31,042 bases of DNA. It comes from a virus. Made by a program: the position numbers and the translations under genes. Shown piece after piece: positions 4,524 through 22,281 of this stretch; the first letter of the stretch is position 1; each line of letters opens with the position of its first letter. The notes under the pieces were generated by a model. The model saw nothing but the letters and a program-made list of their open reading frames with translations, searched no databases and had not been told where the DNA came from. The stretch lies in IMG/VR virus record IMGVR_UViG_3300036851_000204, positions 1 through 31,042 of that record. The stretch is one strand, 5' to 3'.

Positions 4524-5416
4524 GCCGCCTCGCTCATCTCGCGTTCGAGCCAGGCTGCTTCTTCCCACGGGGGGAGCTCGGCGTAGGCGACGCGCGTGCT
4601 GTAGGCGGGCCAGTCGTTCGTCGCCATGCACTTCCGCCATAGGTCGATCGCAAAGGAAACCTTCTTCTCGGCGATCGTCATCGCGGCGGGGCCGAGCGAG
4701 ATCACGGAGAGCGCGTACGGCGGGGTCGTCTCGGCGACGACGAACCGAAAGTCACGGTCGTGGGCGACCTCATCTACGGCCTGCATCCCTCGGAGGTAGA
4801 ACGCCGCCTGCACGTCGTAGCCCATCCCGAAGATCGTCCGAGACCACGTCTCCGGGTTCGCGCTCCGCGACGTCGTCTTCAGATCGTCGATCGTCACCCC
4901 GGCGTCACCGACCCAGTCAGGACGGGCACGGCAAACCACCCCGCCATCCTCCTCCCAAACAACGGTCTGCTCAGCAACCCCGTCAGCGAAGATCGGATGG
5001 TCGACGTTGACCGCGTCCAGCTGCGACCGGATCGCGGCGACCATCGCCTGCACCGATCCCCAATCCTTCTCGAGGAGAGGGAGCCGCCCGACCGACCGGG
5101 CGGCATCCCTCGCGTCCTTCGCCGCGTTCGTCCGCCACGAGTCCGCCTCGACGACCTCAACCCCGGCCTCGCCGAAGAACAGGAGCGCGTGAGCGGCGGT
5201 ACCGACGTCGAACTTCTCGGCCTCGACCCGTCTGAAGTCAGGGTTGAGCCGCGGGTGCGCGGTCCAAGCGTGGAGGGGTGACTGGGTGCAGAGGATCTTG
5301 GCGATCGAGCACGAGAGCGATGGGACGTCCGCGATCTTGTCTGCGTGGTAGTCGTCCGCGGGGATGGCGGCGAGGGTTGGGTAACCCCCCGCCGCCTTGG
5401 CGATTCCTTCGGCCAT
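4520..5416 (-). CDS. PD-(D/E)XK exonuclease, RecE / exonuclease VIII-like
   Basis: A 298-residue nuclease of the PD-(D/E)XK superfamily, close in pattern to phage RecE/exodeoxyribonuclease VIII-like and Cas4-like proteins. Visible motifs are H76 in GTAAHALLF, E149 (AEQTVVW), D167 in RARPDW, the core D178-x-K180 in IDDLKTT and Q203-xxx-Y207 (QAAFY), which is the QxxxY signature. The expected activity is 5'-3' resection of double-stranded DNA ends to give single strands for the Sak4-like ATPase encoded next. The start ATG at 5416 is two bases after the stop of the exported-protein gene. All catalytic positions appear intact. Confidence 0.88.
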   Translation of the reverse strand: MAEGIAKAAGGYPTLAAIPADDYHADKIADVPSLSCSIAKILCTQSPLHAWTAHPRLNPDFRRVEAEKFDVGTAAHALLFFGEAGVEVVEADSWRTNAAKDARDAARSVGRLPLLEKDWGSVQAMVAAIRSQLDAVNVDHPIFADGVAEQTVVWEEDGGVVCRARPDWVGDAGVTIDDLKTTSRSANPETWSRTIFGMGYDVQAAFYLRGMQAVDEVAHDRDFRFVVAETTPPYALSVISLGPAAMTIAEKKVSFAIDLWRKCMATNDWPAYSTRVAYAELPPWEEAAWLEREMSEAA

Positions 5417-5418
5417 CG

Positions 5419-5868
5419 TCAGCGCCCGTTGTGCGAGACGAGCCAGCCAGAGATGGCCGACGTAACGAGGCCGCCGTCTCCGTCATGGCCGAAGTCGGCA
5501 TTGAAGTACGCGTCGAACCGGCAGAAATCCCAGCCCAAAAACGGAGAGCCGACCGTCCGGTTGCCCGTCCAGACCACGACGGACTCGCCCGACGTCAGCA
5601 CGACACGGCCGAACAGGTCGTTGACCGGCTGAACGCAGTCGACGTTGAAGTCGACGACGATCGCGACCGGGCTGTACGACCAGCCGCCGACAGCGAACGC
5701 CGTCGTGGTGTCGAGTGCGGCGAGATGGAACGCCGGGGTGTTGCCTTCCCCGCCGCCCTCGTCGACAACCTGGGCCTTCGCGGCCGAGGCGATGATGAGA
5801 ACAGCGGTGACCGCGGCAAGCACCAGGTAGGTGATCCCAAGCCGCTTCCTATGGGTGGTGATGGTCAT
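5419..5868 (-). CDS. Secreted hypothetical protein (149 aa)
   Basis: A 149-residue protein with a textbook signal peptide: basic MTITTHRKRLG, hydrophobic ITYLVLAAVTAVLIIAS and a probable cleavage after AAKA (about residue 33). The mature part (about 116 residues) is rich in aromatic and beta-forming residues (FAVGGWSYSPVAIVVDFNVDC; WDFCRFDAYFNADFG) with two cysteines that could pair. The ATG at 5868 has GGGAG about seven bases before it; a longer reading upstream would overlap the zinc-ribbon gene and be low-complexity. An exported protein inside a DNA-recombination operon is unexpected. It could alter the host surface or exclude other phages, but that is inference. Family not recognised. Confidence 0.75.
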   Translation of the reverse strand: MTITTHRKRLGITYLVLAAVTAVLIIASAAKAQVVDEGGGEGNTPAFHLAALDTTTAFAVGGWSYSPVAIVVDFNVDCVQPVNDLFGRVVLTSGESVVVWTGNRTVGSPFLGWDFCRFDAYFNADFGHDGDGGLVTSAISGWLVSHNGR

Positions 5869-5870
5869 GG

Positions 5871-6176
5871 TTATGCTCCCTTCGTCGGAGCCGCCGGTGC
5901 CACGCTTCCAACGTGCCGGCGGCTCTGGTTTTTCGTGCGGCGCCACCAATGGCGCTTCGAACACACCTTGCAACCCCGCGTCCACTTCCCACGCTCGACG
6001 CCACACGCGACACATAGGCCGCGTAGGCGCCGGTACTCCTCACGGACTCGTCGGGCCTCCCGTCGGGCCTCCAGGCGGGCGCCCAACTCGTCGATCTCGG
6101 CTAGGTCCGCCGTGATCTGCGCCCGCCGGGATTGGTCGATCAGGTGACGCAGGCCGGTGCGTTCCTCGGCGGTCAT
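5871..6176 (-). CDS. Basic zinc-ribbon protein (101 aa)
   Basis: A 101-residue, strongly basic protein. An N-terminal helical segment (LRHLIDQSRRAQITADLAEIDELGARLEARREARRVREEYRRLRG) is followed by CVACGVERGKWTRGCKVC (two CxxC pairs about 11 residues apart) and a Lys/Arg/Trp-rich patch (KRHWWRR). The arrangement suggests a helix plus treble-clef or zinc-ribbon nucleic-acid-binding protein. The ATG at 6176 overlaps the preceding stop (ATGA). Exact function unknown. Confidence 0.72.
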   Translation of the reverse strand: MTAEERTGLRHLIDQSRRAQITADLAEIDELGARLEARREARRVREEYRRLRGLCVACGVERGKWTRGCKVCSKRHWWRRTKNQSRRHVGSVAPAAPTKGA

Positions 6177-6334
6177 GGCTGGCAGTCCATGATGTACGAC
6201 GGATGGTTCTCAGCCTGAGACTTACGCAGCGTCGCAACCTTCTGACTAAGCGCTGCAATCAGGCATTTGAGCTCGTCGGCGTCGATCTCCAATCGCACGC
6301 GGTACGTGTCCGCGGTTGTCGCCCAGACCTTCAC
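6173..6334 (-). CDS. Small hypothetical protein (53 aa)
   Basis: A 53-residue protein (MKVWATTADTYRVRLEIDADELKCLI...) with a predicted beta hairpin then a helix (DELKCLIAALSQKVATLRKSQ). The GTG at 6334 was chosen because it overlaps the stop of the preceding gene (GTGA) and because everything upstream in this frame shadows that gene. A small, acidic-to-neutral protein of the DUF kind common in phage early regions. No family recognised. Confidence 0.6.
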   Translation of the reverse strand: MKVWATTADTYRVRLEIDADELKCLIAALSQKVATLRKSQAENHPSYIMDCQP

Positions 6335-10395: not shown

Positions 10396-10674
10396 GTGAG
10401 CGTGGCCCATCCGACAGCGGAGCAGCGCAAGATGACGCTTGACGCGACGTTGCAACGGTACGGCGCCGGCGGCTGGCGGATCGAGTCCAGGTCGGATTAC
10501 CAGGCGACGATCGCGCACGGGAAGGAGGTCAGCCACCTCCTGCATTTCTTCCTTACCGTGTTCACGCTGGGAATCTGGCTGATCGCGTGGTTCGGACTCG
10601 GCGTGTTCGGCGGTGTGCAGCGGCGGATGGTCACGATCGACGAGTTCGGGAACGTCGTCGATCAGAAGCTCTGA
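10396..10674 (+). CDS. Small membrane protein beside the repressor (92 aa)
   Basis: A 92-residue protein: an N-terminal soluble part (GAGGWRIESRSDYQATIAHGK), a hydrophobic segment (LLHFFLTVFTLGIWLIAWFGLGVFGG, about residues 48-73) that could be one long or two short membrane helices, and a short C-terminal part (RRMVTIDEFGNVVDQ). This layout matches a conserved family of small membrane proteins found in actinobacteria and their phages. The start is placed at GTG 10396; an ATG 12 codons later is an alternative. It lies downstream of the repressor on the same strand, so expression from the lysogen and a role in superinfection exclusion are possible but inferred. Confidence 0.75.
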   Translation: MSVAHPTAEQRKMTLDATLQRYGAGGWRIESRSDYQATIAHGKEVSHLLHFFLTVFTLGIWLIAWFGLGVFGGVQRRMVTIDEFGNVVDQKL

Positions 10675-10718
10675 GCCCGGCCCCGCCGGACGGGGGACTC
10701 TCGGGCGGGGCCGGGCTC
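10673..10718. terminator. Strong hairpin, probable two-way terminator
   Basis: GAGCCCGGCCCCGCC (10673-10687) and its exact complement (10704-10718) form a 15-bp perfect stem with a 16-base loop. The stem begins within the stop codon of the plus-strand membrane gene. It separates two convergent transcripts: the immunity genes from the left and the late operon from the right. There is no U-run, as is usual for high-GC terminators. Confidence 0.75.
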
Positions 10719-10722
10719 TACG

Positions 10723-10749
10723 CCCTCACCGGGAAAAGGGCAGTGAGGG
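10723..10749. terminator. Second hairpin at the end of the late operon
   Basis: CCCTCAC (10723-10729) pairs with GTGAGGG (10743-10749), a 7-bp stem with a 13-base loop, ending just before the stop codon of the holin-like gene on the minus strand. It may add to the larger hairpin next to it to stop the late transcript. Confidence 0.5.
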
Positions 10750-10968
10750 TCAGTCCTTCTGCGGCTCGAGGTTCGTGAAGAGCGCCTGGATCGCGCGGAG
10801 GCCCGCGGTGACGGCACCGCCGATGAGAGCGACGATCGCGCTCTTCGACGCGTTCCAGTCACCGGCCGCGACGTCGTCCCAGACGCCGGCGAGGCCGAGG
10901 AAGAAGAAGGGGATGAACGCTCTGATGAAGCTGAGCGCGACCTTCCTCCAGAAGATGGCTCCGAACAT
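10750..10968 (-). CDS. Holin-like membrane protein (72 aa)
   Basis: A 72-residue protein with two hydrophobic segments: VALSFIRAFIPFFFLGLAGVW (about 10-30) and SAIVALIGGAVTAGLRAIQALF (about 43-64), with a charged C-terminus (EPQKD). Size, two helices and position at the end of the lysis cassette fit a class II-like holin, which opens the membrane so the endolysin can reach the wall. The ATG at 10968 has a perfect AGGAGGTGA about five bases before it. It is the last gene of the late operon, followed by the terminator hairpins. Direct family match was not tested. Confidence 0.75.
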   Translation of the reverse strand: MFGAIFWRKVALSFIRAFIPFFFLGLAGVWDDVAAGDWNASKSAIVALIGGAVTAGLRAIQALFTNLEPQKD

Positions 10969-10982
10969 GGGTTCACCTCCTC

Positions 10983-11420
10983 TCAGGGTTCGAGTGGGAC
11001 GAGGTGGAGCGTGCGGACGTAGATGTCGCAGTCGACGCTGAAGTTCGCCGCGATCTGGATGTCGAAGAACTGATTGAGCACCTGGGCTCCTTCCGGCGTC
11101 GTGGTCGGGAGAGCGTTCAGGAAGTCGCGTTGCCGTTCGGCCGACAGCCTGGCCTGCGTCCTGGTCTGGTTGTTGAGTTCGCAGACGCCGCGGCGGAACT
11201 CGTCGCGGTTCAGCACGAGCTGCCGGTTGAACGCGCCGAGCCGGTCAGTGAAGTCCTCAAGCCGTTCGATCTGCACGTTGTTCTGCGCAGCTTCAGACCG
11301 GTTGGACTGCCACACCCAGATGATCGCGGCGACCGCGAGGAAGGCTGCCACGAGGTTGCATGCGAAGCCGATGAGAAGCAGGTTCCCTGGGGGGAGTCGG
11401 TCAAGCAGTCGTTGCCGCAT
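10983..11420 (-). CDS. Membrane-anchored protein with periplasmic-type helical domain (145 aa)
   Basis: A 145-residue protein with one transmembrane helix near the N-terminus (LLLIGFACNLVAAFLAVAAIIWVW, about 14-37), then a mostly helical soluble domain (AQNNVQIERLEDFTDRLGAFNRQLVLNRDEF...) with two cysteines. The ATG at 11420 has AGGAGG upstream and overlaps the end of the previous gene by 20 bp. Its place between endolysin and holin suggests a lysis accessory role, such as a spanin-like or antiholin protein; it could also be a second holin. The evidence is positional. Confidence 0.65.
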   Translation of the reverse strand: MRQRLLDRLPPGNLLLIGFACNLVAAFLAVAAIIWVWQSNRSEAAQNNVQIERLEDFTDRLGAFNRQLVLNRDEFRRGVCELNNQTRTQARLSAERQRDFLNALPTTTPEGAQVLNQFFDIQIAANFSVDCDIYVRTLHLVPLEP

Positions 11421-11727
11421 CTAGCCTCCTTCTGAGGCGTTCGTTCTCCTCTTCGAGGTGGGCGATCCGGTGGGCCTGCCCAGCGATCTGCGTGGCCTGG
11501 GCGGCGTTCTGGACACGTAAAGAGGTGAGTTCGGCTTCGAGGTGGGCTACCCGGTCACGCAGCTCGGTGCGCAGCGACGTCGATTCCTTCCACAGGCTGG
11601 CGGCTTCGCTCGTGTCGATCCGTCCGGACCGTTGCCGGCGGATGAGGTACCAGGACGCTCCGAACGATCCGACAGCGGCGATGAGGGCGGCGACGATCCC
11701 CGCGATGAGGGCGACGCCGCCGGTCAC
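11401..11727 (-). CDS. Membrane-anchored coiled-coil protein in the lysis cassette (108 aa)
   Basis: A 108-residue protein: transmembrane helix (VALIAGIVAALIAAVGSFGASWYLI, about 5-29), basic RRQRSGR, then a long coiled coil (LRTELRDRVAHLEAELTSLRVQNAAQATQIAGQAHRIAHLEEENERLRRRL) with regular Leu spacing. The GTG start at 11727 overlaps the stop of the endolysin (GTGA). The shape resembles i-spanin or antiholin proteins, but a Gram-positive-type host would not need a spanin, so a lysis-timing or tail/host-membrane role is as likely. Confidence 0.68.
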   Translation of the reverse strand: MTGGVALIAGIVAALIAAVGSFGASWYLIRRQRSGRIDTSEAASLWKESTSLRTELRDRVAHLEAELTSLRVQNAAQATQIAGQAHRIAHLEEENERLRRRLDAATTA

Positions 11728-12881
11728 GCCAACGCAGGATGCCGGTAGAAGCCGACGAAGTCATCGCGGTAGTCGGCGTTGAGTTCGCCGATTGGGTTGC
11801 CGTACGGGCCGGACTCGGAGCCGAACGAGTAGATCGCGATCTCGTCGAGATCGGCGGTCGGCTTGTCGTCGTCGAAGTCGAGGATCATCGCGACGTGGCC
11901 GCGGTACATGACGGCGTCGCCGAGCGCCGGGATGGTGACCTTGACGAACTCGCGGATGATCGTGTTCGTGTTCGACCACAGCCCGGACTTCGGCAAGGAG
12001 ACGCCAGCGCCGTTGAGGATCCGGACGTATGAGCCGGAGCAGTCGCCCCACCATTCGCGCGCGAACGAATACGGCGGGGCTGGCCGGGTCTGCGAGTAGT
12101 GGCCGAGCTCGGGCCGGGCGGCGAGACGGACGGCGATCTTGACGGCCTTCGTTCGCCGCCGCTGCTTTAGCGCCCATGTGCCTAGCTGCTTGATCGGCTC
12201 CGGCCGGTTCTTGTGGCCGGCGGGGGCCGGCTTGTTGCCGTCGCCCTCGTCGGGCGTGACTGCTTTCGGGATGAGCAGCGTGCGGAGCGGGACGACCATC
12301 CGGTTCTCGTCGACGTCGCCGCGGATGCCTGGGATCGATCCTTTCCATGAGAACTGGTGGATCGCGTAGTCGTCCCAGACCCCGGTGAGCGGCCGGGCGT
12401 GCCGTGGAGCGCCGTCGACGCCGACGTGGGCGACCCAGAGCGGGTACTCCTCGAGCCGTCCGGCACCGCCGATCCGGGGCATGAAGCCGGGGTAGGTGTA
12501 GAAGACCGGCTTCACGTCCGTCTGCTCCTGGACTCGCTTCATGAAGTTGGTAGCCCATGTCCCGAGCTGGGCGGGCGAGAGGCCGTCGTGGTGCTCGAGG
12601 TCGAGGCACGGAACGAGATCACCGGGCCTCGGTTTCGCATGGGCGAGGAAGAAGTCGGCCTGCACGATCGCGTCGCCGACTTTCGGCCGTGCGAAGTGGT
12701 AGGCGCCGACCGCGAGCCCGACCGCTCTGGCGGCCGCCCGGTCGTCGGCGTAGAAGGAATCCCTGAACCCCGTCCCCTCCGTCGCCTTCAGGTAGACGAA
12801 CCGGCGGCCTGATTTCCGTACGCGGCCCCAGTCGATCGGATGGCGGTTGTTGTTGCTCGTGTCGATCCCGAGCGTGGTCAT
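11724..12881 (-). CDS. Endolysin: GH25 muramidase plus NlpC/P60-like domain
   Basis: A 385-residue cell-wall hydrolase with two domains. Residues 1 to about 210 form a GH25 lysozyme: GIDTSN (D7), the catalytic D94-x-E96 in CLDLE, IHQFSW and the GDVDENR end. After a Pro/Lys-rich linker (about 212-232), residues about 265-385 look like an NlpC/P60-type cysteine peptidase or amidase: C281 in WGDCSGSYVR, GDAVMY, and H329 in GHVAMIL. The first would cut the glycan, the second a peptide or amide bond. The ATG at 12881 starts the GH25 domain directly and there is no signal peptide, so export depends on the holin. Two complementary activities are typical of actinophage lysins; the second domain's bond cannot be told from sequence. 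Confidence 0.9.
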   Translation of the reverse strand: MTTLGIDTSNNNRHPIDWGRVRKSGRRFVYLKATEGTGFRDSFYADDRAAARAVGLAVGAYHFARPKVGDAIVQADFFLAHAKPRPGDLVPCLDLEHHDGLSPAQLGTWATNFMKRVQEQTDVKPVFYTYPGFMPRIGGAGRLEEYPLWVAHVGVDGAPRHARPLTGVWDDYAIHQFSWKGSIPGIRGDVDENRMVVPLRTLLIPKAVTPDEGDGNKPAPAGHKNRPEPIKQLGTWALKQRRRTKAVKIAVRLAARPELGHYSQTRPAPPYSFAREWWGDCSGSYVRILNGAGVSLPKSGLWSNTNTIIREFVKVTIPALGDAVMYRGHVAMILDFDDDKPTADLDEIAIYSFGSESGPYGNPIGELNADYRDDFVGFYRHPALA

Positions 12882-13300: not shown

Positions 13301-13819
13301 CTAGCTTCCGTTGATCCAGTGCGCCCACATGCCGGAATCCTGGAGGACACCGAGGTTGCCACCGGAGTCCTGGCGGCCCTCCATGTAGTAGTAACCCGAC
13401 GAGTAGGCTTGCCGGCCGATCACGAACGGGTTGCAGGACGCGTCGAGATAACCGCTCGACAATGGCAGCGACTTCGTCCCCTGCGTCGCGAGCGACCCGG
13501 TGTTGACGATGATCCTGGCATGCCGGTACGTGTTCGATCCGGCTGCGTACTCAAGGTGGCCGCCGAGCATATATCGGCCGGCGGTGACGATCGTGAGGCG
13601 TCCAGTGTCGACGGAGGTGGAGTGCATCCCGTCGTTGTCCCATTCCTCGGAGTCCCAGAGGATGGTCGTGTCGGTCGCTGTGGTGAGCGTCTGCGTGGAC
13701 GACCGGTAGGCACGGACGGAGGGTGGTAGGTAGAGGGCATTGAGGTTGTCGCGGATCTGCTGGTTGAACTGGTTGACGGTGGGAACCCCGGACCATGTGA
13801 TGGGGGTCGTCCACGCCAT
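13301..13819 (-). CDS. Tail-tip/fibre paralogue 3 (172 aa)
   Basis: A 172-residue protein, the last of three tandem related genes. It opens with MAWTTPITWSGVPTVNQFN then QQIRDNLNALYLPPSV, the shared N-terminal motif, and ends with MEGRQDSGGNLGVLQDSG and HWINGS, the shared C-terminal motif. Between them lie alternating beta-strand segments (TTILWDSEEWDND, RLTIVTAGRYMLGGHLEYA), consistent with a jelly-roll or C1q-like head. The ATG at 13819 overlaps the stop of paralogue 2 (TGATG). A receptor-binding or decoration role at the tail tip is inferred from fold, copy number and place. Confidence 0.78.
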   Translation of the reverse strand: MAWTTPITWSGVPTVNQFNQQIRDNLNALYLPPSVRAYRSSTQTLTTATDTTILWDSEEWDNDGMHSTSVDTGRLTIVTAGRYMLGGHLEYAAGSNTYRHARIIVNTGSLATQGTKSLPLSSGYLDASCNPFVIGRQAYSSGYYYMEGRQDSGGNLGVLQDSGMWAHWINGS

Positions 13820-14349
13820 CAGCCGCTGATCCAGTGGACGGCGAAGAACGGCGGCGACGGGATGTTTAGGTTGCCGCCCGCGTTCTGCCTGCCTTCGACG
13901 TAGAGTTCCTCGCTGAGGGTCGGGTCGATCGCGAACGTCGACCCGGTGCAGTGGTAGGGGATGTTGGCGGCGCCGACGGTGCCGACGTAATCGATGACCG
14001 TCTCGCCGAGCTCGGATGGGTTCTTGCGGATGCGGAGATACCGGCCGCCGTCCGCATCCGTGGCCCATTCCGCCTCGATCGTGCAGAGGTAGGTGCCGGC
14101 GACGGTCGGCGTGATGAACGGGTTGACGGCGGCCGACGCGACACTGTGGAGGCCGCCCGGGTCGGTCTGTTCGCTGTCGAAGTTCAGTGTCTTGGCGGCC
14201 CCATCGCTGAACGTCTGCGACGTGTTATGGAAGACGACGCACACCGGCGGGTCATGGAGGAATATGAGGTTGTCACGCACCTGCTCGTTCATGAACGACA
14301 CCGTTACGAGCTGGCCGACCTTCCCCGTCAGAGGCGACGTCCACGCCAC
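13819..14349 (-). CDS. Tail-tip/fibre paralogue 2 (176 aa)
   Basis: A 176-residue member of the three-gene family: MAWTSPLTGKVGQLV, then NEQVRDNLIFLHDPPVC at the N-terminus and VEGRQNAGGNLNI with HWISG at the C-terminus. The middle is beta-rich (TAKTLNFDSEQTDPGG, GTYLCTIEAEWATD). The GTG at 14349 was chosen because the family motif begins there, one base after the previous stop; an upstream reading to 14418 overlaps paralogue 1. Same inferred role as its neighbours. Confidence 0.78.
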   Translation of the reverse strand: MAWTSPLTGKVGQLVTVSFMNEQVRDNLIFLHDPPVCVVFHNTSQTFSDGAAKTLNFDSEQTDPGGLHSVASAAVNPFITPTVAGTYLCTIEAEWATDADGGRYLRIRKNPSELGETVIDYVGTVGAANIPYHCTGSTFAIDPTLSEELYVEGRQNAGGNLNIPSPPFFAVHWISG

Positions 14350-14350
14350 C

Positions 14351-14944
14351 TCAGACGCCTCCGACCCAGATCGCCGAGTGATACGGCACACCGACGCCGA
14401 CAGCACCGGCAGGCTCATAGAAGGCGACGAGTGAGTCGCTCTTGTCCTGGTTCGTCGTGTCCTGGTTCATCTTCACGCCGACGACGAATTGGACGGAATC
14501 AGCCGAAGACGCTCGGTAGAGGGCGGTGGCCGGGACGAGGTTACGAACGATGCCGTGAAAGGCGATCGACGCGCGCCCGCGGACGTTGACGTTGTTGTTG
14601 CCGACCGTGCGGACACTCATCGTGACCTCGCGGCTGCCGAGGGTCACCCACTCGAACGAGATCGTCGTGTTCGCGAGATAAACACCCGTAGTCCGCGCAG
14701 TGAAGAGCGCCGCCTCTGGTTCGTTATCGGTTGTGACGCCGCCGTGCATCCCATCCGTGTCGTAGCGGGTATCGTCGAACTCGAACAGCTGGAAGACGCT
14801 GTTTCCTTGCATCGACTGGTTGCGGGTCGCTACCGCTTTGACCCGTGGCGGCCCGTACAGGGAATCGAAGTTGTCGCGCACCTGGACGTCCCACAGGGTG
14901 GCGGTGACGACCGCGGCACTCCACGTGATCGGCGACGTCCACAC
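14351..14944 (-). CDS. Tail-tip/fibre paralogue 1 (197 aa)
   Basis: A 197-residue member of the family, longest and most divergent: MWTSPITWSAAVVTATLWD then QVRDNFDSLYGPPRV at the N-terminus. The centre is beta-rich (FQLFEFDDTRYDTDGMHG, GVYLANTTISFEW, VTMSVRTVGNNN), and the C-terminal motif is replaced by VGVGVPYHSAIWVGG. The GTG at 14944 follows directly on the stop of the zinc-motif gene. Divergence from copies 2 and 3 suggests an older duplication or different target. Confidence 0.76.
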   Translation of the reverse strand: MWTSPITWSAAVVTATLWDVQVRDNFDSLYGPPRVKAVATRNQSMQGNSVFQLFEFDDTRYDTDGMHGGVTTDNEPEAALFTARTTGVYLANTTISFEWVTLGSREVTMSVRTVGNNNVNVRGRASIAFHGIVRNLVPATALYRASSADSVQFVVGVKMNQDTTNQDKSDSLVAFYEPAGAVGVGVPYHSAIWVGGV

Positions 14945-15394: not shown

Positions 15395-16603
15395 TCAGAG
15401 ACCGAATGTCGTGTTCGTACCGAGCGTCGACGTCCCCAGCAGCCACTCCGTGATCGAAGGGTCCGCGGGGCTCACGTCGAACTGGAGCCCGTACGGCTGG
15501 CCGATCACGATGTCCTCGGTGATCCCCTCGAGATGAACCTCCTTGGCGATCGGCGAGCCGCCGCCGGGAGGCTCGATATCGATCGCGAACCGTGTACCTA
15601 CATCAGCGGCGAGGAGGATGGTCATCATCGCGTCGGTCAGCCGTTGGTTGCCGCTCATCGGCTTCAATGCTGGGAACCGGTAGCCGGGATCCCTGTAGCG
15701 CCACGGGACGATCGACGCCAACGCCGCCGCCTCACCGGGTTTCGCGAGCAGACTCTGGAAGTCGTCTTTGCGGGAGTCCCAGTAGTCGGCGGCTGCGACG
15801 CTGTCCGTGACTTCCTCACGGTCGCCGTTCGCGGTGATGACGGTGAAGCGGTTCCACAGTGTGGCGTCGTTGACTTCGCCTTCGAAGTCCCGTTGGTAGG
15901 GGATCTGCGCGACGTCGGGGCCGAACGTCGCGGCCGCAGCGCCGTACGTGTCGATACGGTGCCGGCGGTTGTGGAAGACGATGTCTCCGGAGAGGCTGTA
16001 GAAGAGGTAGCCGCCGTCGCTCTTCGCCGCGTCTTGGCAGTGTTGGAGCGCGCCGACGGTCTGCGGCTCCTCGTTCGCCGCCGGCGTCGGGATCGCTTCG
16101 CAGTAGACGTCAGATGTGTCGAGCGACCGGTCGCCGGCGGGGATGCTGATCGCGTCGAGGACACGTCCGATCCGGGTGTGGACGAGCTCGCGGGGATAGC
16201 CGCTGATCGTGACCTGTGCCCGGTTCAGGATCAGCCCGTAATCGGCGCAGGCAAGATGGAGGGTGGCGTCTGGTTCGCGCCACACGGCTTTGAGGGAGCG
16301 GGCGAAGCCGCCGAACCGGTCGTGGGTGACGCCGTCGTGGCGGGCCTGGAGCCGGACGCGTTTCCGCGGCCGGTGGCCGGCGGTGGCGAACGGCTCGAGC
16401 GCCCGGTCACGGTTATCCAGGACGGCCGTGAGGGAGCCCGTCTCGAACTCGTCGAGCTCCGTCTGGCGGTACGACCTCGTGTGAACCTCACGCAGGCGAC
16501 TGGTGAGCGACTCCCAGACTGGGGTGTCAGCCGGGTCCGTGGTCGGCGACCACTCGAGGCTGAACTCCGGCTCGCTCGGCAGCGGCCTCTTCCAGGTCGC
16601 CAT
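15395..16603 (-). CDS. Minor tail / baseplate-like protein (402 aa)
   Basis: A 402-residue protein of the large class of actinophage minor tail proteins that follow the tape measure. It has alternating beta segments and typical phrases (RQTELDEFETGSLTAVLDNRDRALEP at about 41-66; LHLACADYGLILNR; YRDPGYRFPALKP). The LDNRDRALEP motif is common in phage tail hub proteins that carry a beta-sandwich. It likely forms part of the distal tail or tail-tip complex. The ATG at 16603 follows directly on the stop of the upstream gene. Precise role (hub, fibre base) is not settled. Confidence 0.78.
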   Translation of the reverse strand: MATWKRPLPSEPEFSLEWSPTTDPADTPVWESLTSRLREVHTRSYRQTELDEFETGSLTAVLDNRDRALEPFATAGHRPRKRVRLQARHDGVTHDRFGGFARSLKAVWREPDATLHLACADYGLILNRAQVTISGYPRELVHTRIGRVLDAISIPAGDRSLDTSDVYCEAIPTPAANEEPQTVGALQHCQDAAKSDGGYLFYSLSGDIVFHNRRHRIDTYGAAAATFGPDVAQIPYQRDFEGEVNDATLWNRFTVITANGDREEVTDSVAAADYWDSRKDDFQSLLAKPGEAAALASIVPWRYRDPGYRFPALKPMSGNQRLTDAMMTILLAADVGTRFAIDIEPPGGGSPIAKEVHLEGITEDIVIGQPYGLQFDVSPADPSITEWLLGTSTLGTNTTFGL

Positions 16604-17047
16604 TCAGCTGGCGCGGTAGAAGCCTGAGGCGGCGACGGTCAGCGTGACGTCGGAGCCGTCCGGTGTGATCGCGAAGTCGTGCCAGGTGAGCGGGATCAGG
16701 TCGGCGTCAGTGCCGCCAGTCGTGTCGGGGTCGTAGCAGATCAGGACGTCCGAGATGGCGTTGCCGGTAGCGGCCGTCCAGACGACGTCGGCGGCGTCGA
16801 CGTCAGCGCGGTCGTTCGTATCGTCGACCGTCACCGTGACCGAAGCGAGGGTCTTGCGGCCCATGGTCGTCTGCTCGTTGTTTGCGGCGGCGAGGAGGGC
16901 GCTGACGGTGTCGTAGTCACGGATCGTGGCGTCGGCTTCGACGCCGGTTGCCTCGATCGGGATGAGAATCAGAGCGTCGTTCGCGGCAGGGAGGGTCGCG
17001 TAGTACGCGGCCTTCCCTTTCCCGATGTTGAAGACAAGGTCGGCCAT
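16604..17047 (-). CDS. Tail structural protein (147 aa)
   Basis: A 147-residue protein: MADLVFNIGKGKAAYYATLP at the start, then a helix-poor body (ASVTVTVDDTNDRADVDAADVVWTA; ISDVLICYDPDTTGG) and FYRAS at the end. This is the layout of a small actinophage tail or fibre-associated protein. AGGAAGGAG precedes the ATG at 17047. It is conserved in form in actinophage minor tail clusters; function is inferred from the cluster. Confidence 0.74.
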   Translation of the reverse strand: MADLVFNIGKGKAAYYATLPAANDALILIPIEATGVEADATIRDYDTVSALLAAANNEQTTMGRKTLASVTVTVDDTNDRADVDAADVVWTAATGNAISDVLICYDPDTTGGTDADLIPLTWHDFAITPDGSDVTLTVAASGFYRAS

Positions 17048-17060
17048 GCCGGGCTCCTTC

Positions 17061-17357
17061 CTAGAAGACGGTGCGGTTCACGCGGAACTCGCCCTCGATC
17101 GCCGCTGTGGGGTCACCGGTGCTCTGCCAGCGCCACTTCCAGATGCCGTGCGCGCTGGCGGTCAGGTTCACGTGGAAGAGACCTAGGCTGTCGCGGACGA
17201 GCTGTGCGTCGGTGAGGTAGACGTACGTGGTCTCCGCGCCCGCCGGGGTCTCGAACTTGAACGTCACCGTCGTCGGGTCGGCGAGCGCGGCGGCGAGGTT
17301 GCGGAACGTGGCTTCGCAGACGACGCCCTGACCGACGTCATAGCTGTTGACGGGCAT
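17061..17357 (-). CDS. Small beta-rich tail protein (98 aa)
   Basis: A 98-residue protein with repeated beta-strand segments (GVVCEATFRN, PTTVTFKFETP, TTYVYLTD, GLFHVNLTASAHGIWKWRWQSTG, IEGEFRVNR) that looks like one immunoglobulin-like or similar sandwich domain. Such single domains are common on phage tails and capsids, where they help attach to the host. The ATG at 17357 overlaps the stop of the repeat-bearing gene (TGATG). Fold inferred from strand pattern. Confidence 0.72.
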   Translation of the reverse strand: MPVNSYDVGQGVVCEATFRNLAAALADPTTVTFKFETPAGAETTYVYLTDAQLVRDSLGLFHVNLTASAHGIWKWRWQSTGDPTAAIEGEFRVNRTVF

Positions 17358-18514
17358 CAGGCGACCTCCCTGTCTGTGGCGGTCACGGTGCCTTGCGGTC
17401 CGTCGGAGGCCTCGACGGTGCCGCGTGGGCGGTCGAGCGCGGCGACGGTACCGCGGGACCGGTCGATGCCGACGACGCGGCCGATGACGTTCGTGACGGC
17501 GAGGACAAGGGCCATCGCGACATTCGTTTCCGTTGCCTGCCCGAGCAGCCGTGTCTTCAGGCGGCCCACGGCGTTCGCGACGTTCGCCTCGGCGGCCTGC
17601 CCAATCGCCCTAGCCTTGGTGACTCCCACCGTCTCGACCGTGTCCGTCTCGGTGACGAGCGTGAGCGCGCGCGCCTTCGCTTTCCCGGTCGGCTGCGCGA
17701 TATCTGTCTCGGTGGCCTGCCCGATGCCGAGCGTCTTCGACCTGCCGACGGGCTGCGCCGCGTTCGTCTCCGAGATCAGCCCCGTTGACGCCGACTTCGC
17801 CCGTCCCATGGTCTGCGCCGTGTCTGTCTCCGCGGTCTGGCCGATCTCAGCCGTCTGCCCGGCCGTCGCCGCCTTCACCTCGAACGCGACGGCCGCCCAC
17901 CGGCCTGACTCCCCTGGCGTGTCGTCGGTCATGACAGCCGTCGTGTCCTGCCCCGTCCGGTGCATCGTGAAGTGGTTGAAGTTCGGGGTTCCGAAACCCT
18001 GGTCGGAAAGCTGCGTCCACCCGGCCTCGGGAGCGACACGCCGGTTGTCGTCTCTCGAGCAGACGGCGATAGCACCGTTGTTCGTCGCGTCAGCGAACGC
18101 GGCAAGGGTGACCGTCACGGAAGTCTGAGCTGTGGCGGAAGCGATCGCGAAGTTGTTCGACCCTCCGACGATCTCGGAGGCGTCAGCCCCGGTTACCTGG
18201 ATGACCTCGATGCCGAGCCCGGTCTGATCCGCGGCGAACGTGGCAGTCACGACGAACGAGCCGGGGCTGCCCGTGATCTTCGCCTTGAAGAGCGACGCAC
18301 GGATCAGGTTGCCGCTATTCGCGGTTCCGATCTGCGTATACGTCAGCCCTGGGCCGTTATCGGAGAGGCTGGCCGTGTCCGGCGTCGTCGCCTTCGAGTT
18401 CGTGACCGCGACGATGAGCCAGGAGTCGGCGGCCGGGCTGACGGACGGGGAGGCGACCGAGCTCGCGTCCGTCGTTGTCGTGGTGATGCCGAGCGACGTG
18501 ATCGCGAGCGCCAT
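17357..18514 (-). CDS. Tail surface protein with tandem repeats (385 aa)
   Basis: A 385-residue protein. Residues 1 to about 218 form a beta-rich domain (WLIVAVTNSKATTPDTASLSDN..., GLGIEVIQVTGAD...) like phage fibre or carbohydrate-binding sandwiches. Residues about 224-343 are six repeats of exactly 20 residues built on the theme GQA-x-ETD-x-AQ-x-x-GR-x-K. Residues 350-385 hold three copies of a 10-residue repeat of the form D-R-x-R-G-T-V-x-A. The repeats are low in hydrophobics and may form an extended stalk. The ATG at 18514 follows directly on the stop of the 199-aa gene. A fibre or stalk role is inferred. Confidence 0.78.
   Translation of the reverse strand: MALAITSLGITTTTTDASSVASPSVSPAADSWLIVAVTNSKATTPDTASLSDNGPGLTYTQIGTANSGNLIRASLFKAKITGSPGSFVVTATFAADQTGLGIEVIQVTGADASEIVGGSNNFAIASATAQTSVTVTLAAFADATNNGAIAVCSRDDNRRVAPEAGWTQLSDQGFGTPNFNHFTMHRTGQDTTAVMTDDTPGESGRWAAVAFEVKAATAGQTAEIGQTAETDTAQTMGRAKSASTGLISETNAAQPVGRSKTLGIGQATETDIAQPTGKAKARALTLVTETDTVETVGVTKARAIGQAAEANVANAVGRLKTRLLGQATETNVAMALVLAVTNVIGRVVGIDRSRGTVAALDRPRGTVEASDGPQGTVTATDREVA
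17360..17467. repeat. Three 30-bp repeats coding a 10-residue motif
   Basis: Residues 350-379 of the tail surface protein consist of three 10-residue units (IDRSRGTVAA, LDRPRGTVEA, SDGPQGTVTA), followed by a partial TDREVA. They lie at the very C-terminus, after the 20-residue repeats, and differ from them. Confidence 0.75.
17486..17845. repeat. Six 60-bp repeats coding a 20-residue motif
   Basis: Residues about 224-343 of the same protein form six units with an invariant period of 20 residues: the (A/S/T)E(T/A) triplet recurs at residues 228, 248, 268, 288, 308 and 328. Most units carry G-R-x-K or a variant near the end. The units differ enough that they are not recent copies. Confidence 0.85.
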
Positions 18515-19114
18515 TCAGAGCACCTCAAAGCCGAAATCGTCGACGTCGATCAGCATCGGATCAGCGGCCTGCACGAGGCCCGCGCGGATCGCGGTCGGGT
18601 TATGCGCGTACCGCCACGGCGCCCGGCTCGTGTACGGCCTGTCGTTCACGACAAGGAACGTCCCCGACGCATCCTGCGCGAGCACAATCCGGTTCCTGAC
18701 CCCTGTGCTCAGCGGCGGCCCGACCAACACCGTCTCGGCGCCCACCCCCGGCTCGAGCGACTCACGGACAACCCGCAACAGCCGCTCAGTGCTCCACATG
18801 ACGATGCCGCCGACGTCCTGGCCAGGCCCGCCGTTCTCGACCGCGCGGGTCGCCCAATTATCCCACCTGACCAGGGCGAGCTGGCCGGTGCGTTGCCGGT
18901 CGTAGAAGTCAGCGGGCGGCCGGAGGCTGACCGTGACGACGTAGCCGGAGAACGGCTCCTCGTACCTCAGGCGGGCGAAGTGCTCTCCGTAGACCGAGGA
19001 CGTCTTCGCCTTCTCAGCGTCGACACGGCAACGCGCCCAGCCGCGGTACAGCCTCACCCCAGCCGCGTCAGCAACAGCTGGGGCGAAACCGGTGTCGAAC
19101 CGTGCGAGCTTCAC
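18515..19114 (-). CDS. Tail protein (199 aa)
   Basis: A 199-residue protein with long beta-strand stretches (GVRLYRGWARCRVD, YVVTVSLRPPADFYD, NRIVLAQDASGTFLVVND) typical of phage distal tail or carbohydrate-binding domains. The GTG at 19114 overlaps the stop of the beta-helix gene (GTGA). It is conserved in position among minor tail proteins; no clear family name. Confidence 0.7.
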   Translation of the reverse strand: MKLARFDTGFAPAVADAAGVRLYRGWARCRVDAEKAKTSSVYGEHFARLRYEEPFSGYVVTVSLRPPADFYDRQRTGQLALVRWDNWATRAVENGGPGQDVGGIVMWSTERLLRVVRESLEPGVGAETVLVGPPLSTGVRNRIVLAQDASGTFLVVNDRPYTSRAPWRYAHNPTAIRAGLVQAADPMLIDVDDFGFEVL

Positions 19115-19992
19115 GGAATGAGCGGCCTCAGGATGCTGTCGGCCATCGTGACCGCGTCGATGTAGCGGGCGATGAGCGTTGCCTGGTCACGGATCGCCTG
19201 CTGAGCCTCTTCGAGCTGTGCGGTGAGGCTCGCGTTCTCGGCACGTAACGCGGAGACGCAGGCGGCGTCGCAGCCAGCAGGCGGCGGCTCCGTCGTCGTA
19301 GGAGGCGGCAGCGTTGTGCCGGGCTCAGTTACCGGCGGCGGCTCCGCCGTGCCCTGGCACACCGCGTTCGACCGTGACAGCACCCGGTTGTTGACGTTGA
19401 CGGGCTCGATCATGCCCGACTGGATGCGGATGCCGGCCGTCGATCCCTGGCACACCGTGGAGTTCCTGATGCCGGAACGGAAGCCGGCCTTCATATTCAC
19501 GGTTGAGTTGGCGGGCAGGAAAGTACAGCCGTCGCAGACGACGTCGTTCATGTTCTCCCGGCTCGCGCCGAAATGCATCGCCGCGTTGTTCGCGGTGCGG
19601 CAGTCGATCGTCAGGCCCCGGAACTGGACGTTGTGGCCACCTTGGATCTGGAGGCCGTCCTGGTGAAGGTCAGGGTCGGAGCGTTGGACGCAACGGATGA
19701 AGCCTCCGCCGACGATGAGGTCATGAGAGTCGGAGAACGTCTTCGCTCCGTCGCCGCGGGCGCCGCTGATCTCAATCCTGCCGATACGGCCTGTGCAGCC
19801 GTTCCCGAAGATGATCCCGGTGCCTGAAGGGTTTCTGACCTCGACCAAGTCGAGGTCGACCGCTGTCGTGCATGTCCAGCCGCGGCCTTCGACGTGAACC
19901 TCGTTCGACCCGCCAGCGAGCGCGAGCGGAACCAACGCCCCGGCTGCCGCAATAAGAAGGGCCGCTACCGCGGCCCCGAGGTGCTTACGCAT
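19111..19992 (-). CDS. Exported beta-helix protein with coiled-coil tail (293 aa)
   Basis: A 293-residue protein with a clear signal peptide (basic MRKH, hydrophobic AAVAALLIAAAGALVPLALA, cleavage near residue 26). The mature part has pectate-lyase-like right-handed beta-helix features: short repeated strands with Asn/Asp/Gly turns (DLIVGGGFIRC, LHQDGLQIQGGHNVQFRGLTIDC, MNDVVCDGCTF, SGIRNSTVCQG). It carries ten cysteines, suggesting disulfides outside the cell. A Pro/Thr linker (about 217-240) leads to a coiled coil (LRAENASLTAQLEEAQQAIRDQ). AGGAG precedes the ATG at 19992. It lies between the tape measure and other tail genes. Signal peptides are rare on phage virion proteins, so it may act on or outside the host wall; carbohydrate binding is inferred. 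Confidence 0.78.
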   Translation of the reverse strand: MRKHLGAAVAALLIAAAGALVPLALAGGSNEVHVEGRGWTCTTAVDLDLVEVRNPSGTGIIFGNGCTGRIGRIEISGARGDGAKTFSDSHDLIVGGGFIRCVQRSDPDLHQDGLQIQGGHNVQFRGLTIDCRTANNAAMHFGASRENMNDVVCDGCTFLPANSTVNMKAGFRSGIRNSTVCQGSTAGIRIQSGMIEPVNVNNRVLSRSNAVCQGTAEPPPVTEPGTTLPPPTTTEPPPAGCDAACVSALRAENASLTAQLEEAQQAIRDQATLIARYIDAVTMADSILRPLIP

Positions 19993-20001
19993 GAACGGCT
20001 C

Positions 20002-22281
20002 CTATCGTGAGAACAGTCTGGTCAAGCCCTGGGATCGGCTCTCGAGCGCGTCGCGGATCTTGGTGGCGAGATCTTGTTCGGTCATGACGGAGCCGGCCAC
20101 GTTGACGTAGACGTTGACGACCGTCTGCCCGCCCGACCAGCCGCGGCCGCCAGCGAACGGCTCGAGATCGGACAGCATCCCCCGCGTCTCCGTGTTCGAG
20201 TAGATGTCGCTGCCTGCCGGGAGGTTCACGAGTTCCGGGCCACGCTCACCCACGACCGACCAGCCACCACGCCAGTTCCTCGTGCCGATCGCGTTCTGGC
20301 CGACGGTGCCGCCGGGTAGGTCGTCGTGGATGACGACCATGTGCGTCTCCCAATAGGTCGGGGTATTCCTGACGGCGTTGTTAACTGAGTTCGCGGCGTT
20401 GGCGGCGGCGTCAGCACCGGTCGTCTGCATGTGCGTCCGATGCGAGTCCGGGATGTCCCGGATCTTGTCGGCCAGATCCCCGGCCTTGTTCGCTGCCGTA
20501 CCAGCTGCTCCCGCGAAGACCTCAGCTTGCCCCGCCGCCCCGGTCAGCTTCGGGCTCGCACCCTGAGCCGCACCGCCGACATCCTGCAGACCGAGCTGCA
20601 CGTTCCCGAGTTGGCCGCCGAGGCTGTCGAACTGACCCCTGACGTAATCGACTCTCCCGCCGAGCTCGTCAGATTTCGACTTCGTGACGTCCATGTTCTT
20701 GTAGACGTCGACGAGCGCGTCGTTCGCTCCTTCCGTCGCGTCTCTGCTCAGGACCGTCGCGTCCTTTAAGGCGAGTTCAGCGCCGGTGAGATCCTCGGCG
20801 GCTCGCGTCGACTCGAGTTTGGCCGCCTCTAAATTGAGCTGCGCCTGAGCGTAGTCGTCCGTCCCCGTCTTACCCTCGCCCGTGAGACGGGCTACTTCGC
20901 TCTCGGCTGACGCAAGGACCAGCGCCGCCTGCTCGACGCGAAGGTGTGCGTCCTCGAGCCCTCGCTCCGCGTCGACCAGCCCGTCGGCTGCCGTCTTCTG
21001 CCCGTCCAGCGCCAACTTGGCTGCGTCTACCGCGTCCTTGAGCTCTTTGTTGGCGTCTGTGAGCTTGTCAATCCAGATGATCGCTGCGGCTACCGCGCCA
21101 ATGGCGATAACGGCGCCGAGGATCGGGAGTGGGATCTTCAGCAGAGCACCGGCCAGGCTGCCGAGGCCGCCGACGAGGCGGACGACTGAGCCGGCGAGCG
21201 TTCCGACAGCACCAGCCACCTTGCTCGCGATCAGGAGCCCTGTCAGGCCGCCCACGACGACGCCGAGCGCGGTCTGGAGGGCCGGCCCGATCCCGAGCTG
21301 CTCGGCGAGGTTCGTGCCGGCGCCGAACGCGGTCCGGATGGAACCCACGATCGCGTTGAAGACGGTCTTGCCGACATCGACCCAGTTGATCTCGGCGATC
21401 TTCCCGGTGATCGCCGTCAGGATTTCCTTGCCGATGCTGCCGAGCCCGGACGCGATCTCACCGAGGGCGCCGCTGACGGATCCGGCGTCCATCAGCCGGC
21501 CGAGCCAGTCGATGAACCGGTCCGCGTAAGGCATCAGCCTCGTCGCGAGCGCCTCCGAGATGTCCTCGAACTTCCGTTTCAGGATCTCGATCTTCCCCGC
21601 GGTCGTGTCGCCCGCGGCCTCGGCGACACCCCCGAACTTCGTCTCGAGGAGGCCGAGCAGATACTCAAGCGCCCCGGCCTTGTCGCCGGCTTCGATGAAC
21701 TTGTCGATCGTCTTCTGCTGCTCCTCGTTCAGGACGACACCCGCCCGGGCGAGCTTCCCGGCCGCCGTCTCCGGATCAGCAAGCGCTTTGCCAAGCACCA
21801 GGGCCGCGGCCGGCAGATCCTTCCCGAGGGCGACGCTCATGTCCGCCGCCACAGCCGTCGTCCGCTGAAACACACCCTCATCACCGGCGAGCGACTCGAA
21901 ACGAAGGAGCGTGTTCTCCGCGGACATGATCACGTCGTCCGGGATCCCCGTCATCCCCTGCAACGCGGAAGCCCACCCCTCGATATCACCGGTCGTGATC
22001 GACGTCGCCGAACCCAGGTTCTTGATCAGCGTCTCCGACGTCGCCAACGCCGACTCCGCCTCCTTCAGCTCCCCGAAACCCGTCTTCAGCGCGACCGCCA
22101 AACCGGTCCCGACGACACCGGCCAGCCCCAGCGCGGCGAGACCCGCGATCTTCAACCCTGACGCGAGGCGCCCACCAGCCTTCGACCCGAGCGAGTCGGC
22201 CGCGTTACCGGTCGCGTGCAGGGCACGGACAGCCGACGACGCATCACCAACAACCTTGACCTCGATCGTGCTACTGGCCAT
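20002..22281 (-). CDS. Tape measure protein
   Basis: A 759-residue tail tape measure protein that sets tail length and crosses the tail tube. It starts with a heptad-like region (IEVKVVGDASSAVRALHATGNAAD), has a first hydrophobic stretch (about 43-68), a long helical middle and a second long hydrophobic region (about 334-404) that may cross the host membrane on DNA entry. It ends with a helical and fibre-like part (GGWSVVGERGPELVNLPAGSDIY), which is typical of actinophage tape measures. The ATG at 22281 follows directly on the stop of the frameshifted chaperone (22282). The length suggests a tail of around 110 nm by the usual 0.15 nm per residue rule, an estimate only. No lysozyme or peptidase domain was seen inside it. 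Confidence 0.93.
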   Translation of the reverse strand: MASSTIEVKVVGDASSAVRALHATGNAADSLGSKAGGRLASGLKIAGLAALGLAGVVGTGLAVALKTGFGELKEAESALATSETLIKNLGSATSITTGDIEGWASALQGMTGIPDDVIMSAENTLLRFESLAGDEGVFQRTTAVAADMSVALGKDLPAAALVLGKALADPETAAGKLARAGVVLNEEQQKTIDKFIEAGDKAGALEYLLGLLETKFGGVAEAAGDTTAGKIEILKRKFEDISEALATRLMPYADRFIDWLGRLMDAGSVSGALGEIASGLGSIGKEILTAITGKIAEINWVDVGKTVFNAIVGSIRTAFGAGTNLAEQLGIGPALQTALGVVVGGLTGLLIASKVAGAVGTLAGSVVRLVGGLGSLAGALLKIPLPILGAVIAIGAVAAAIIWIDKLTDANKELKDAVDAAKLALDGQKTAADGLVDAERGLEDAHLRVEQAALVLASAESEVARLTGEGKTGTDDYAQAQLNLEAAKLESTRAAEDLTGAELALKDATVLSRDATEGANDALVDVYKNMDVTKSKSDELGGRVDYVRGQFDSLGGQLGNVQLGLQDVGGAAQGASPKLTGAAGQAEVFAGAAGTAANKAGDLADKIRDIPDSHRTHMQTTGADAAANAANSVNNAVRNTPTYWETHMVVIHDDLPGGTVGQNAIGTRNWRGGWSVVGERGPELVNLPAGSDIYSNTETRGMLSDLEPFAGGRGWSGGQTVVNVYVNVAGSVMTEQDLATKIRDALESRSQGLTRLFSR

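Follow-up and report, generated by a model that had tools for sequence, protein, structure and literature searches.

A predicted Sec-exported, cysteine-rich protein encoded in the tail operon of a probably temperate phage

Why would a tailed phage encode, directly behind its tape measure, a protein rich in cysteine that begins with a signal peptide, and where would that protein act? The usual assumption is that tail proteins fold and assemble in the cytoplasm, a compartment in which disulfides do not form. A preliminary description of the locus suggested that the protein is secreted and forms disulfides, and that it acts outside the infected cell, on its surface, or enters virions by an unusual path. 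The analysis below confirms the observations behind that suggestion and supports the interpretation in part.

The phage and its tail operon

The window, meaning the whole 31,042-base stretch of DNA that was analysed, is one entire IMG/VR virus record with a G+C content of 66.5%. It encodes an integrase (PF00589, 5e-21), terminase, portal, protease, HK97-type capsid, tail genes, a GH25 lysin, and two small coiled-coil membrane proteins, and the phage is therefore probably temperate and siphovirus-like. It appears to be a phage of soil type, and the lysin and gene style point to a host that is probably actinobacterial; a search of GTDB genomes with the GH25 lysin found nothing. The features on which the argument turns all lie on the minus strand of the window:

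20002–22281 (−): tape measure protein, operon partner upstream (PHROG tape measure, 2e-15)
19999–20003 (−): AGGAG ribosome-binding site, 6 nt 5' of the P0001 ATG and overlapping the tape measure stop (sequence)
19111–19992 (−): exported cysteine-rich protein, here called P0001, 293 aa (open reading frame and translation; forced ATG, frame of 296 aa)
19915–19992 (−): Sec signal peptide, residues 1–26, MRKHLGAAVAALLIAAAGALVPLALA followed by GG (n/h/c-region rules)
19345–19914 (−): mature body, residues 27–216, a probable right-handed beta-helix of about seven coils with one cysteine per coil (41, 66, 101, 131, 156, 181, 212) plus Cys153 (sub-cut-off PF13229, repeat and cysteine-spacing tests, low-confidence models)
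19273–19344 (−): Pro/Thr-rich linker, residues 217–240 (translation)
19114–19272 (−): CX3C pair (Cys241, Cys245) and coiled coil, residues 241–293 (model helix 240–291; heptad test p = 0.002)
18515–19114 (−): next tail-module gene, 199 aa, GTG start overlapping the P0001 TGA (no family; ConA/LamG-like fold possible, by eye only)
16604–17047 (−): conserved tail/fibre-module protein, PHROG 26662 (E 1.3e-63)
15395–16603 (−): tail-tip-type protein (PHROG 5313, 1.4e-18)

The PHROG match of its upstream neighbour bears out the earlier placement of the P0001 gene right after the tape measure. Because the stop-to-stop frame of 296 aa leaves room for at most three residues upstream and AGGAG stands 6 nt before the ATG, this ATG is forced as the true start, and a hidden cytoplasmic N-terminal domain has no place in the frame. 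A mis-called start is ruled out by the same frame length. The tape measure stop and the P0001 start are separated by a 9-bp gap, the TGA stop overlaps the GTG start of the following gene (GTGA), and no promoter-like site occurs in 18400–20300. On these grounds the gene is read as a member of the tail operon and not as a free-standing moron; it does not have the own promoter and terminator, or the spacing from its neighbours, that characterize classic morons. Most likely, judging from this arrangement, P0001 is made late, together with the tail. Late acquisition of a foreign gene is unsupported, since both GC and GC3 (0.82) match those of the neighbouring genes.

A terminator-like hairpin was seen at 19958–19977 (−), within the signal-peptide codons just past the tape measure gene; its T-tract is weak and it may be due to chance. 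Further along the module, 17357–18514 (−) encodes a fibre-like protein with repeated (L/I)GQATETDTAQ motifs, and many related phage loci have fibre genes with similar repeats. At 13301–14944 (−) lie, in tandem, the genes of three fibre-like proteins that are related and have in common an N-terminal W-T-(S/T)-P...(R)DN(L/F) motif, and a protein of this type is found in the same module of a related phage (L163, 6816–7442).

Export signal and predicted architecture

The N-terminus of P0001 consists of MRKH, a 21-residue apolar core (19-residue Kyte–Doolittle mean up to 2.43), and ALA placed directly before GGSNE. The signal-peptide call was made by n/h/c-region rules, and all three regions, with an AxA site, come directly after the forced start, in agreement with the strong signal peptide claimed before. 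The signal peptide lacks a twin-arginine and a lipobox (position +1 is not Cys), and P0001 shows no further hydrophobic segment that could retain it as a membrane anchor. The forced start, the classical signal peptide, the cysteine enrichment, and the Pro/Thr linker together give strong sequence support to export from the cytoplasm, and hence to the secretion proposed earlier; P0001 is therefore predicted to act outside or on the infected cell. The same phage has a second candidate exported protein at 5419–5868 (−), where an inner ATG gives 149 aa with a signal peptide ending in AAVTAVLIIASAAKA before QVV; it has two cysteines, and its gene lies beside recombination-type genes.

The ten cysteines reported for P0001 were recovered from the translation at positions 41, 66, 101, 131, 153, 156, 181, 212, 241, and 245. 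They make up 3.4% of the protein compared with 0.50% (28/5561) in the window's other head, tail, and fibre proteins, a 7-fold enrichment (Poisson p = 3.5e-6). Seven of the body's eight can be linked into a series with spacings of 25, 35, 30, 25, 25, and 31 residues, one per coil, and random placement would give such 25–35 spacing, for any 10-residue band, with p = 0.001. Disulfides between them are presumed from the sequence.

The body is quite probably a right-handed beta-helix, as judged from sequence patterns and models. Pfam family PF13229 (Beta_helix) matches residues 110–202 at E 0.0058 and 16.7 bits with the whole protein and at E 0.0013 and 18.8 bits with residues 28–215, in both cases under the curated cut-off of 25.9 bits. 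Off-diagonal self-similarity exceeds that of shuffled sequences (p = 0.013) with peak offsets of 28–31 residues, the clearest repeat pair by eye being SHDLIVGGGFIRC and GHNVQFRGLTIDC. AlphaFold2, run without an alignment, placed strands at a solenoid-like spacing with low confidence (pLDDT 45 and 42). The beta-helix-like body of the preliminary description thus keeps the backing of the sub-threshold family match, the repeats, and the cysteine spacing, and at pLDDT values of 42–45 the fold stands as probable only. Foldseek searches of the PDB and a viral library, made with these low-confidence models, yielded nothing significant; solenoids (PL3, PL6, GH28, GH110, phi29 gp12, and ice-binding proteins) made up many of the non-significant PDB matches, which is a hint only, and those in the viral library were mixed. 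Sequence searches of the PDB returned chance matches only, no catalytic or binding motif was identified in P0001, no lyase family matched it, and no family of the PADLOC defence models did so at E ≤ 1. Matches to PF05322 (NinE) and PHROG 233 (E 0.3 and 0.35) were taken as noise.

The C-terminal parts proved to be as first described. The Pro/Thr stalk occupies residues 217–240, and the coiled coil is modelled as a helix over residues 240–291 (local pLDDT 81–87 over 261–290), with hydrophobic residues at 10 of 15 heptad core positions (shuffle p = 0.002).

Relatives and companion phages

No homologue of P0001 was found by tblastn of the whole protein, body, or C-terminal part against reference phages and plasmids, nor in viral contigs, GTDB genome contigs, or 42 whole related phage records. 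A lone match at 0.003 in the latter spans two stop codons and was dismissed. Viral contigs likewise contain no close relative of the tape measure or tail-tip protein and no relative of the 18515–19114 protein. Related loci were gathered with two baits, the PHROG 26662 protein (80 phage loci kept) and the capsid protein (80 further loci). The relative sharing the most genes, twelve, is L104/L163; the gene behind its tape measure codes for a small protein, and next comes a tail-tip domain of the 15395–16603 type (likeness by eye) joined to a LamG domain. The fusion gene (L163, 4897–6798; Laminin_G_3, 1.4e-20) carries the LamG domain ahead of the tail-tip-type domain. No counterpart of P0001 occurs in this region of L104/L163, and for this reason the gene looks accessory, within what appears to be the adhesin end of the tail module.

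When the related loci were scanned for signal peptides with a crude predictor, at least four other phages with a PHROG 26662 gene (L063, L061, L021, and L072) turned out to encode different signal-peptide proteins among or beside tail and fibre genes. The set comprises two more beta-helices, one GH16-like protein, and two FnIII-like proteins, all unrelated to P0001. The beta-helix of L063 (5564–7804) has a signal peptide, Pro-rich linkers, and a PF13229 match over the cut-off (5.8e-6), and its gene is flanked by lysis genes on one side and, on the other, by fibre genes that run up to the PHROG 26662 homologue. That of L061 (16908–19634) is a 909-aa signal-peptide protein in which beta-helix-like coils are visible by eye and which no Pfam family matches; its gene and 15660–16901 are preceded by a minor tail protein gene (PHROG 290). 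Neither of these two beta-helices is related in sequence to P0001, and no relation of either to reference phages was found. In L061 a signal-peptide protein with an FnIII-like domain (10563–10940) follows the PHROG 26662 homologue and is itself followed by another exported protein (10943–12010), and a lipoprotein-like product with weak GH32/GH130 similarity begins at 19639. L021 encodes a signal-peptide GH16 protein (5378–6202; 6.5e-7) 21 bp before its PHROG 26662 homologue, and L072 a signal-peptide protein that is FnIII-like by eye with no Pfam match (2557–2910). Across 10563–20468 of L061, about five signal-peptide or lipoprotein-like genes are interleaved with tail genes.

Signal-peptide genes lay within 4 kb at 15 of 79 PHROG 26662 loci, the window's own locus included, versus 6 of 76 capsid loci (Fisher p = 0.06; by genes 0.02), counts made with a crude predictor of which several calls on both sides look false. 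They suggest a modest enrichment near PHROG 26662 homologues. As an internal control, the beta-helix (pectate-lyase-like) spikes L172, L176, and L177 of the same phage group have polar N-terminal domains and no signal peptide. The earlier premise, if read to mean that products of genes lying among tail genes are never exported, is too strong in view of HK97 gp15, T4 Spackle, and the companion phages. N-terminally membrane-anchored proteins were also seen adjacent to the PHROG 26662 homologue, or close by, in L019 (9292–9966), L036 (9299–9970), L048 (14265–14825), L037 (9148–9846), and L044 (9010–9636), those of L019 and L048 reading as a coiled coil with collagen-like repeats and a Cys pair at the terminus.

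Possible roles and known counterparts

We favor, with a probability of roughly 0.45 for the statement as a whole, the reading that P0001 is a late, Sec-exported, cysteine-stabilized beta-helix acting on surface glycans and controlling adsorption to the producing cell. The sequence itself shows the place of the gene in the operon, the forced start and the signal peptide, as well as the cysteines, the linker, and the heptads. On the favored reading, P0001 would be synthesized late as a tail-operon product and leave the cytoplasm through the Sec pathway of its host, probably an actinobacterium. Once the signal peptide had been cut off, the protein would fold on the outside as a right-handed beta-helix stabilized by a cysteine ladder, borne on the Pro/Thr stalk and oligomerizing via the C-terminal coiled coil with its CX3C pair. 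It may then bind or trim glycans on the infected-cell surface or in its surroundings, with the result that superinfecting phage would be kept off and/or progeny would not re-adsorb to the producing cell and debris. We infer the glycan target because beta-helices acting outside cells mostly bind or cut glycans and because the companion phages carry GH16, GH32/130-like, and FnIII-like domains. Receptor or adsorption control would be the likeliest role of such a protein.

Against this reading stand the searches that turned up no homologue, the low confidence of the models, the lack of an identified catalytic or binding motif, the modest size of the enrichment near PHROG 26662 homologues, and co-expression with the tail genes, which would also suit a virion part. 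P0001 might be an adhesin that is secreted, oxidized, and oligomerized outside the membrane and docks by its coiled coil on tail tips at lysis as an extra receptor-binding or glycan-cutting fibre. Its gene stands at the junction of tape measure and tail-tip genes in one operon with tail genes, LamG and fibre-type genes occur in the same module of the phage group, and other phages have beta-helix, FnIII, or GH proteins with export signals in or beside tail and fibre modules. P0001 has no recognizable tail-docking domain, however, and we know of no tailed-phage virion fibre that takes an out-of-cell route, so that we consider this account possible but unlikely.

The glycosidase-like proteins of the companion phages (GH16 and GH32/GH130-like) would also suit a captured secreted host enzyme, a polysaccharide lyase or similar, carried as lysogenic-conversion or auxiliary cargo to degrade environmental or capsular polysaccharide. 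The integrase, and with it a probably temperate life style, the small size of the beta-helix, and a faint Foldseek likeness to PL3 pectate lyases (TM about 0.3, E > 1) fit this idea, but a gene with the GC3 of its neighbours bears no foreign signature, has no promoter of its own, is locked in the tail operon, and matches no lyase family, which makes cargo distinctly unlikely. It is quite improbable that P0001 is a superinfection-exclusion factor in the envelope that recognizes the incoming tape measure protein at DNA injection, in the manner of HK97 gp15 or TP-J34 Ltp. Exclusion by gp15, a predicted inner-membrane protein, and by Ltp is overcome by changes in the tape measure (PMC10883804), and on the HK97 map the gp15 gene lies directly beside the tape measure gene, as the P0001 gene does; gp15, however, carries a moron annotation, has a terminator-like site after it, and is predicted to remain membrane-bound, whereas P0001 has a soluble, cysteine-rich body and a gene with no promoter-like site or spacing of its own, and shares only location and export. 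An ordinary tail spike, with its hydrophobic N-terminus uncleaved and buried in the tail tip and its cysteines reduced, would account for a beta-helix and trimerizing coiled coil co-expressed with the tail and encoded beside tail genes, the usual spike architecture, but is very improbable given that the forced start is followed directly by a charged n-region, an apolar core, and an AxA site, that cysteine is enriched 7-fold, and that true spikes in the same group have polar N-terminal domains.

Together with the unrelated exported proteins of other phages, P0001 suggests that part of the late expression of some phages serves the cell exterior, possibly for adsorption control, glycan processing, or out-of-cell fibre maturation. 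This possible class of tail-module proteins, drawn from a handful of phages with a crude predictor, may be more interesting than P0001 alone. It seems doubtful that, in certain tailed phages infecting soil-type bacteria, genes for Sec-exported proteins of beta-helix, FnIII, and glycosidase-like kind are a routine part or neighbour of the tail and fibre modules, and that their products mature by disulfide formation outside the cytoplasm before joining the virion or arming the cell surface; we found no earlier description of an extracytoplasmic branch of tail-fibre biogenesis.

Among known systems, PF13229 proteins resemble P0001 in the sub-threshold match over residues 110–202, the coil-like repeats of 24–30 residues, and the cysteine at a recurring coil position, while P0001 differs in scoring below the curated cut-off, in having no catalytic family, and in its one cysteine per coil. 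Like P0001 as predicted, phage tailspikes (P22/phi29 gp12 type; L172, L176, and L177) combine a beta-helix with an oligomerizing segment and are encoded among tail genes. Canonical tailspikes have an N-terminal tail- or head-binding domain and no signal peptide; P0001 has a signal peptide in place of that domain, its body comes first and its coiled coil last, and it is cysteine-rich. Compared by description only, HK97 gp15, which acts in superinfection exclusion (PMC10883804), is like P0001 an envelope-directed protein encoded beside the tape measure gene of a long-tailed temperate phage, but is short, is predicted to be a membrane protein, and has a terminator-like site behind its gene, whereas P0001 has a large exported body and no signals of its own. 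TP-J34 Ltp, also compared by description only, shares signal-sequence export in a Gram-positive host but is a lipoprotein aimed at the tape measure protein. P0001 resembles gp15 and Ltp in its exported location, predicted from the signal peptide, and lacks the lipobox or membrane anchor that would retain it at the cell. T4 Spackle (gp61.3), a signal-peptide protein that binds the tail-spike lysozyme in the periplasm (PMC7650644), sets a precedent for phage proteins of this sort working on a tail component beyond the cytoplasm. It has 97 aa, inhibits the gp5 lysozyme, and is unlike P0001 in size and fold; the likeness would lie in a cleaved signal peptide, action on a tail component outside the cytoplasm, and cysteines able to pair.
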